Source of the DNA: Clostridiales bacterium | Lineage (GTDB): Bacteria > Acidobacteriota > Aminicenantia > Aminicenantales > UBA8522 | Direction of reading: 5' to 3' | Assembly: GCA_029907205.1 (NCBI GenBank) | Contig: JARYMI010000001.1 | Location: 62,001-126,000, forward strand | DNA: 64,000 bases | In this document: one piece after another, positions 19,789 to 59,181 of the stretch | Layout of the letters: every line of letters begins with the position of its first letter | Position numbering within the stretch: position 1 is the stretch's first letter | Translations under genes and position numbers: made by a program | The notes under the pieces: model-generated | Databases searched by the model: none | What the model saw: the letters and a program-made list of their open reading frames with translations, nothing else | What the model was told of the DNA's origin: nothing

Positions 19789-19868
19789 CGGAAAAGTATG
19801 ATGGCAGAAACGCTCCCGCCAGTCAAACACAAGGAGGTCTCGTAAACACTTCCATTTGTGTAATTCTG

Positions 19869-19993
19869 ATGGGCGCAGGAGGCCGCCCCAGAGCCCCCGT
19901 AGCGGAGGGGGGACCCGTCGGCTTTTCCGACGGGGGGAACCGACGGGACTGGTTCCCTGGGGCCCGGGGGCCAGGGTGGCTTCCTGCGCCCAT
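19869..19993 (+). repeat. Structured palindromic repeat, copy 1
   Basis: A GC-rich 125-base element in the 356-base gap between lepA and tatA. Its ends form an inverted repeat, ATGGGCGCAGGAGGC against GCTTCCTGCGCCCAT, 14 of 15 positions pairing. Inside lies the hairpin CCCGTCGG-CTTTT-CCGACGGG. Over the 73-base core 19891-19963 it matches the reverse complement of copy 2 (55887-56008) at 69 positions. Similarity continues past the right end: 20001-20031 matches copy 2 at 22 of 31 positions. It could be a MITE- or REP-like element or a transcribed structured RNA. Apart from this and the promoter, nothing else is seen in the gap. Confidence 0.8.
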
Positions 19994-20044
19994 CGTGCAG
20001 ATCGCATATTTGGGAACGCTTCCGAATGTCTGCCGTCAGGCGCC

Positions 20045-20073
20045 TTGACTTTTGGGCCCAAGTGAAGTACTTT
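20045..20073 (+). promoter_or_regulatory. Candidate tatA promoter next to repeat copy 1
   Basis: TTGACT (20045-20050), a 17-base spacer and a weak TACTTT (20068-20073). The same TTGACT follows the repeat at copy 2. Just before tatA, CTCCT (20126-20130) can pair with AGGAG (20134-20138) of the ribosome-binding site. Confidence 0.45.
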
Positions 20074-24255: not shown

Positions 24256-24366
24256 TCGTGGTCTCCTCTATCCAATTTTCCCTCAATTATTTAGTCGTGG
24301 CTCTTGTGGTCCGTGCACACCGGCACTCTATTTAATCACATAAACAAAGATGCTTAGCTCGAGAGC

Positions 24367-24515: not shown

Positions 24516-24540
24516 AACATAATTTAATAAAGGAGGTTTG

Positions 24541-55844: not shown

Positions 55845-55886
55845 GAACAAGATGCTCGTAAGCATCCCCAATTATTTGATTCAGTT

Positions 55887-56008
55887 GGGTGCAGGAGGCT
55901 GCCCCTTGCCCCCGCGCCCCGGGGAACCAGTCCCGTCGCTTCACCCCGTCGGAGAAGCCGACGGGTCCCCCCTCCGCTACGGGGGCTCCAGGGCAGCCCC
56001 CTACACCC
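55887..56008 (-). repeat. Structured palindromic repeat, copy 2
   Basis: A 122-base GC-rich element between der and the TPR lipoprotein gene. On the minus strand it matches copy 1 (19869-19993); core 55916-55988, 69 of 73 positions equal. Outer arms GGGTGCAGGAGGCT / AGCCCCCTACACCC pair at 12 of 14 positions, and the inner hairpin CCCGTCGG / CCGACGGG is kept. The downstream flank has GATGCT-TACG-AGCATC, a perfect small hairpin (55852-55867). The element lies in the same orientation relative to the downstream promoter as copy 1. Confidence 0.8.
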
Positions 56009-56048
56009 GCCTCAAAGATCATTTGTTTTGACATGCCTCCAAGAAATA

Positions 56049-58833: not shown

Positions 58834-59181
58834 TGGTGGAGGCGGCGGGAATCGAACCCGCGTCCGAGGACATTCAGCAGCAAGCCTCTACATGCATATC
58901 CTCTTCTTTGTTCTCGTCGAGCGGCACCCGAAGAGGAAGGGCGCCGCCAAACCAGCCCCGAAAATGCTTCGCTCACCAGGTTCAGGGCGCGCCAGGTTCG
59001 CTATCCTGCTCATCGACGCTTCCCGGGAACCGCAGGAGAATCCCCGAGAAACGGCATGCCTATCTCTTAGGCAGCGACTGGCAGTGCTTCTGCACTTACT
59101 TGGGTCCACCGTTTTACGAGGTGGATGGAATCTCGACATGCAGCTTGTGCCTCACTATCCCCGTCGAATCCGTTCGCCCCC
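58834..59181 (-). ncRNA. ssrA: Transfer-messenger RNA (tmRNA)
   Basis: A 348-base one-piece tmRNA. The 5' end GGGGGCG-AACGGATTCGACGG and the 3' end GGTTCGATTCCCGCCGCC-TCCACCA form the alanine-tRNA-like domain, acceptor GGGGGCG against CGCCTCC with one G-U pair. CCA is encoded. The tag frame resumes at GCA (59093-59091) and reads AEALPVAA then TAA (ends 59067). The tag is short but ends in the usual hydrophobic VAA. The region between holds the pseudoknot domains. SmpB is not in the window. Confidence 0.97.

Follow-up and report, generated by a model that had tools for sequence, protein, structure and literature searches.

TnGBS and ISLre2 elements settle upstream of sigma-A promoters so that the -35 box is 15-17 bp away, most often 16 bp from the right end; some ISKra4 elements keep the same spacing, and have promoters on both sides where their inverted repeats are nearly perfect or complementary (PMC3942029). 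The direct repeats of these groups are 8 or 9 bp long (Guerillot et al. 2014, PMC3942029). We analysed a repeat between lepA and tatA that shares with TnGBS/ISLre2 (p-MULT 3) and promoter-targeting ISKra4 (p-MULT 4) the 16-bp spacing to the -35 box, as well as direct repeats of 8-9 bp and promoters on both sides if the inverted repeats are alike (PMC3942029). It differs from all three in being a MITE of about 180 bp without a transposase gene, for which no matching autonomous copy was found, and from TnGBS/ISLre2 in its host order, where none of 94 genomes had an ISLre2 match (NF033529) above cut-off.

Like bacterial MITEs in general (e.g. MITEAba12), the element is short, non-coding and intergenic, with terminal inverted repeats and target duplications. 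Unlike them, its interior rather than its ends is best conserved, and this interior is common to MITEs with different ends and from different phyla. Rickettsia palindromic elements are also palindromic and about 100-150 bp long, and the in-frame passage of one Elusimicrobia copy through a protein gene (L155) is a further likeness; they are not known to be alike in sequence.

We observed dispersed copies, shared ends, target duplications, a promoter spacing, a conserved core and its wide distribution, and a promoter-targeting MITE with an exchangeable interior and probably a three-way-junction core very probably explains the lepA-tatA repeat. In the proposed course of events, a MITE of about 182 bp entered the intergenic region from which lepA and tatA are divergently transcribed. 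Its ends, of the GGAAGCATCTC... family, would make 9-bp target duplications and direct insertion, in either orientation, to sites where the -35 box of a sigma-70-type promoter follows at about 16 bp. The interior would be one of several exchangeable ones, here a palindrome around a conserved core.

The lepA-tatA element and its copies in the genome

The window, which is the whole stretch of 64,000 nucleotides analysed, holds a MITE copy of 182 bp at 19842-20023 in the intergenic region of the divergent lepA and tatA genes, bounded by its terminal repeats and target duplication (Table 1). A sequence-only reading had described a structured repeat at 19869-20073, and this extent was not borne out. 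The conserved 31-base flank that it had noticed does exist; it is the right terminal inverted repeat, and the left flank is its matching partner. The TTGACT box is likewise present, outside the element and no part of it. The palindrome with an inner perfect hairpin (CCCGTCGG / CCGACGGG) was found as described: arms 19868-19888 and 19974-19994 are 90% complementary, and the RNA fold reaches -97.6 kcal/mol (z = -6.5), with 0 of 200 shuffles equally stable. The second copy, on the opposite strand near 55.9 kb, was recovered by blastn (82% over 156 columns, E 3e-37). The window also contains a solitary family end, where no core and no partner end were seen; a TTGACA box lies immediately downstream of it, and a plus-strand ORF at 24538 follows.

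Table 1. Features of the lepA-tatA element and related sites in the window
Feature	Position	Strand	Basis or remark
Left target-site duplication, GGAGGTCTC	19833..19841	+	Decayed, 6/9 identical to right copy
Left terminal inverted repeat (GTAAACACTTCC...)	19842..19867	+	7/11 against consensus GGAAGCATCTC
Left palindrome arm, partner of right arm	19868..19891	+	Complementarity, RNA fold
81-nt conserved core	19892..19972	+	Core alignment, covariation
Core parts: junction strand GTAGCGGAGGGGGG; variable hairpin CCCGTCGG..CCGACGGG	within 19892..19972	+	
Core part: invariant hairpin GGGGAACC-GACGGGACT-GGTTCCCC, in the tatA copy ..GGTTCCCT	within 19892..19972	+	
Right palindrome arm	19973..19994	+	Complementarity, RNA fold
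Right terminal inverted repeat (...GGGAACGCTTCC)	19995..20023	+	8/11 against consensus
Right target-site duplication, GAATGTCTG	20024..20032	+	Flank comparison
-35-like TTGACT, lepA side, 15 bp beyond left end	19821..19826	-	Likely targeted promoter
-35-like TTGACT, tatA side, 21 bp beyond right end	20045..20050	+	-10-like TACTTT at 20068-20073
Copy 2, 183 bp	55858..56040	-	Bounds converted from locus L020; -35-like TTGACT 13 bp from copy-2 end
Solitary family end, 1 mismatch to terminal repeat pattern	24335..24355	-	Pattern search

The copy at lepA-tatA is old, since its duplication (GGAGGTCTC / GAATGTCTG) matches at 6 of 9 positions only; its terminal repeats match the consensus at 7/11 and 8/11. 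The sequence-only reading had suggested recent mobility, and was right about the kind of element (dispersed copies, terminal inverted repeats, target duplications) and not about the age of this copy. In a search for lepA in four genomes of the family, the sole strong match was a 102-residue stretch with 70% identity on contig C184 of G001, and an empty site was not found.

Counting copies across the genome had been proposed together with that reading. The source genome assembly (G000; 3.26 Mb, 132 contigs, 92.75% complete) gave 57 blast pieces, which resolved into 40 distinct core-bearing copies once weaker places were fetched and the core placed; two of these are cut by contig ends, and L053 repeats L030. 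The core is also present in relatives. An alignment of 30 own-genome copies revealed a near-invariant centre, arms that vary yet stay complementary, and matching terminal repeats. One copy (L050) has about 116 extra bases inside the core. The terminal repeats of the family, GGAAGCATCTC.../...GAGATGCTTCC, are imperfect, and GGAAGCATCTC-type ends occur in most of the 38 copies that have both flanks. A search of the genome with the terminal repeat pattern returned 62 matches, and the reversed control returned none.

Target duplications and promoters were examined in these 38 copies, the two cut ones being dropped; the terminal repeats served to define the ends. The 9-bp flanks match at a mean of 4.47 of 9 positions, compared with 2.29 for mismatched pairs (0/20,000 permutations). 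At the set ends, two copies have perfect 9/9 duplications (L002, GCCATTTTC; L047, GCTGTTCCG), and those of L003 and L023 are perfect by eye once shifted by one base. In its own genome the element is thus dispersed and multicopy, has terminal inverted repeats at both ends and a 9-bp target duplication, and contains no internal transposase gene.

Like REPINs and BIMEs, the copies are numerous, intergenic and folding palindromes; unlike them, they have 8-9 bp target duplications and no tie to RAYT genes. That they are REP/REPIN sequences moved by a RAYT (TnpA_REP, Y1) transposase would fit the high-copy intergenic palindromes with a GTAG/ATAG motif and, in Saccharicenans, the short tandem arrays that lie between convergent genes. 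However, target duplications of 8 or 9 bp are present, and duplications of this length are untypical of Y1 enzymes. PF01797 does not track the core either (found in 31 of the 38 core-bearing genomes and in 44 of the 56 others), and the single PF01797 gene of the own genome, a 147-aa frame, lies on a contig (C106) without a listed copy. We rejected this explanation for lack of co-occurrence of PF01797 with the core, and consider it very improbable.

Position relative to promoters

Promoters were scored as TTGACA, 15-19 bases and TATAAT, running outward from both ends; this score and its cut-off were picked after the 30-copy alignment had been seen, so that 15 copies lacking an intact core (here called coreless) form the only fresh test. 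A score of at least 7 was reached in 24 of 38 right and 14 of 38 left flanks; for random stretches taken at these loci, the share at 7.0 or above is about 3%. The -35 box lies at exactly 16 bp in 13 of the 38 copies (8 right and 5 left flanks), for which the binomial p is 2.8e-14 against a flat expectation over 60 positions. At 15-17 bp the number rises to 20 of 38, all distinct, with 13 on the right and 7 on the left (binomial p = 0.26). By this simple score, a promoter at 15-17 bp is absent in 18 of the 38 core-bearing copies.

The coreless set came from 20 fetched loci off the list of core copies, of which 15 had two ends and five were dropped. None of the 15 elements kept an intact core between its paired ends. 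At least two (L364, L375) resemble deletion remnants of core-bearing copies, and other coreless elements have a different interior. A second folded interior, CACGGCGCGTCCCCTTCCGTCC...CCCCGTGGGGAACCCCTTACGCTGCGGGCGG, lies between the same ends at L366, L369, L376 and L378 of the own genome, at L369 only partly. The interiors of elements with these ends look exchangeable. In the fresh test, a promoter scoring at least 7 was found at 15-17 bp from one end in 11 of 15 coreless elements, and at exactly 16 bp in 8 of 15 (6 right, 2 left). Their 9-bp duplications range up to 9/9, in L362. The same spacing occurs with the same ends and other interiors, and therefore the position reflects an insertion preference. 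The 11 of 15 at 15-17 bp further indicate that it is the ends with their transposase that confer targeting, and not the core.

These results bear on a host regulatory element, an RNA or a protein site held upstream of promoters by selection. The fixed -35 spacing and the strongly conserved core are what such an element would show, but the spacing is unchanged in the 11 of 15 elements with the same ends and other interiors, both orientations occur, target duplications are present, and in the Elusimicrobia genome G095 the core-bearing elements have no preference for promoters (a score of at least 7.3 in 4 of 74 flanks). We rejected this explanation on the ground that the spacing tracks the ends and not the core, and hold it improbable. 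A promoter-carrying element was rejected as well, with the boxes lying beyond the ends. The sequence-only reading had argued for one or the other from the position before a promoter; the promoters are outside the element. It had also set copies in random orientation with target duplications only against its own proposal; orientation and duplications are of that kind, but the choice of target is non-random.

For a MITE inserted by preference near promoters, TTGACT is target DNA. At lepA-tatA, the lepA -35 box (15 bp, with a weak -10) fits better than the tatA -35 box (21 bp). In 112 copies from other genomes, we found no clear promoter peak relative to the stem ends; promoters scoring at least 7.3 are frequent there (29 of 224 flanks), and stem ends are perhaps a poor guide to element ends.

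The putative mover

The mover would be a transposase of the TnGBS/ISLre2/ISKra4 type (p-MULT 3/4), judging from insertion specificity and duplication length. This superfamily is named because the match in spacing and duplication to the published elements (PMC3942029) is close; by this analogy we infer the kind of transposase. Searches with PF06782 and PF00872 (own genome only), NF033572 and NF033529 found no autonomous element with the same ends, in an assembly that is 92.75% complete. PF06782 had no match in the own genome, and the control for that search was equally silent.

Several candidate sources were rejected. The own genome has one IS256 (PF00872) and one ISH6-type transposase; the ends of the IS256 looked different by eye, and those of the ISH6-type gene differ. 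Full ISKra4 elements were over cut-off in 2 of 94 genomes of the order (G050, G090), with different ends, GGGCCTGCGTCATA, that do not match. The ORFs between paired copies (L147, L177, L186) and over both L155 copies are by eye ordinary genes, and no transposase was found among them.

ISH6-type transposases (NF041731, 437 and 408 bits) were seen at L091:198-1517 (-), on contig C77 of the own genome, and at L093:1429-2748 (+). Both genes sit in bacterial genomes of the own order. The ISH6 family is reported almost exclusively from archaea (PMC3942029).

The conserved core and its distribution

Across 42 diverse copies of the 81-nt core, drawn from Aminicenantes, Elusimicrobia and CPR bacteria, 26 columns never vary. 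The core probably forms a three-way junction. The junction model would consist of the variable arms, a strand (A/G)TAGCGGA(G)GGGG, a variable hairpin, and the invariant hairpin GGGGAACC-GACGGGACT-GGTTCCCC. The variable hairpin shows compensatory changes. The covariation score was 0.222, compared with 0.111 in shuffled alignments (0/500) and 0.075-0.126 with slid partners, the relatedness of the copies not being removed; this test used a hand-set arm pairing and so leans towards our structure. Two of five covariation measures were not above shuffles (pairs changed on both sides, 233/500; further pair types, 447/500). Arm cells pair at 59% only, and one fixed alignment cannot follow arms of unequal length. 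RNAalifold on alignment A1 gave a local hairpin instead of the arm pairing, and the covariance model R1 was built on the RNAalifold structure. Selection on the core, as the sequence-only reading had implied, is supported by the invariant columns across phyla and the covarying stems, the latter from the covariance analysis it had proposed.

With Rfam 15, only a tmRNA and two tRNAs match in the window, and seven loci searched at E up to 5 gave weak matches only, all under the gathering score. A known RNA was rejected, no Rfam family having been found. The tmRNA gene lies at 58834-59181 (-) with 180 bits. We found no paper printing any of six core pieces, and a listing-level search of the literature found none on such elements in these bacterial groups.

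A search with the core found it in 38 of 94 genomes and 12 of 35 genera of the order, with at most nine places scored per genome. Among named genomes, the exact core pattern occurs in at least 91 stretches, mostly in Candidatus Aminicenantes among the matches listed; Elusimicrobia, Yanofskybacteria, Woykebacteria, Taylorbacteria and one Bacteroides bin are also among these. The covariance model gave at least 93 and at least 17 copies in two Elusimicrobia, at least 25 and at least 5 in two Yanofskybacteria, at least one each in the Woyke-, Taylor- and Bacteroides bins, and 10-44, again as lower bounds, in five genomes of the Aminicenantes order. The genome with at least 93 copies measures 2.3 Mb, and the one with at least 25 measures 0.7 Mb. 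The single-copy bins are weak evidence, and misbinning is possible because the Woykebacteria copy shares flanks with one Yanofskybacteria copy and the Bacteroides copy has Aminicenantes-like ends. The core had no match in phages or plasmids and its pattern none in viral contigs, and on this basis a phage or plasmid origin was rejected.

The ends around the core differ among genomes. In G095, the elements are 132-136 bp long with ends GWAARGGTTTAGC (both ends were scored in 37 of 41 fetched copies), and their 8-bp duplications are perfect in 25 of 37 (mean 6.97, compared with 2.27). Within the single genome G088 the core is flanked in part by GGAAGCATCTC-like and in part by CTAATACAAACGCA-like ends, and the ends in G030 are of the CTAATACAAACGCA-like type. 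No shared offset of target duplications was found in G030, G088 and G060 (best mean 0.54). At least three end families therefore share this core, and for two of them duplications, of different length, are proven.

Two further arrangements were observed. In Saccharicenans-type genomes, two to three core copies form short same-strand arrays between convergent genes (L075, L077, L078, L120), spaced by about 145 bp in L075 and L120, perhaps reflecting a different mode of spread. One Elusimicrobia copy (L155:5509-5622) is part of an open 380-aa ORF that by eye looks like a sugar-nucleotide epimerase, and the frame continues through the copy, whose 133 bp together with the 8-bp duplication make 47 codons.

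The core could be merely what remains of a single ancestral MITE after divergence of its ends, with functionless complementarity maintained by template-switch (quasi-palindrome) repair. Palindromes are known to self-correct, and the arms indeed vary among copies yet stay complementary. However, self-correction fails to account for the many best-conserved letters that are unpaired or in the invariant hairpin, and two different end families share the core in G088. We regard a relic as unlikely. A further alternative is that an inert core has been passed between palindromes by recombination.

We infer instead that the core does something. Its folded strand may take part in a sequence-specific interaction for which the core is retained, a reading that we prefer because some of the highest conservation is at unpaired letters and the core occurs in otherwise different MITE families. 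It is possible, if not quite probable, that the 81-nt core is an independent functional module, as an RNA or an extruded DNA hairpin, read by a protein of many phyla. On this view, at least three MITE families, unlike in their ends and target rules, would have captured it and spread it among Aminicenantes, Elusimicrobia and CPR bacteria.

Promoter-targeted transposition is here extended to MITEs, in a group with no ISLre2-type enzyme and few ISKra4 found, which explains why such repeats stand ahead of genes and yet are not regulators. The analysis also exposes a conserved folded core common to different mini-transposons of distant bacteria. If the core is a functional module, it would be of use to every mini-transposon in which it sits; it might, for instance, bring the ends into contact or protect the element from transcription. 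This raises the testable question of whether a non-coding core aids the spread of mini-transposons.
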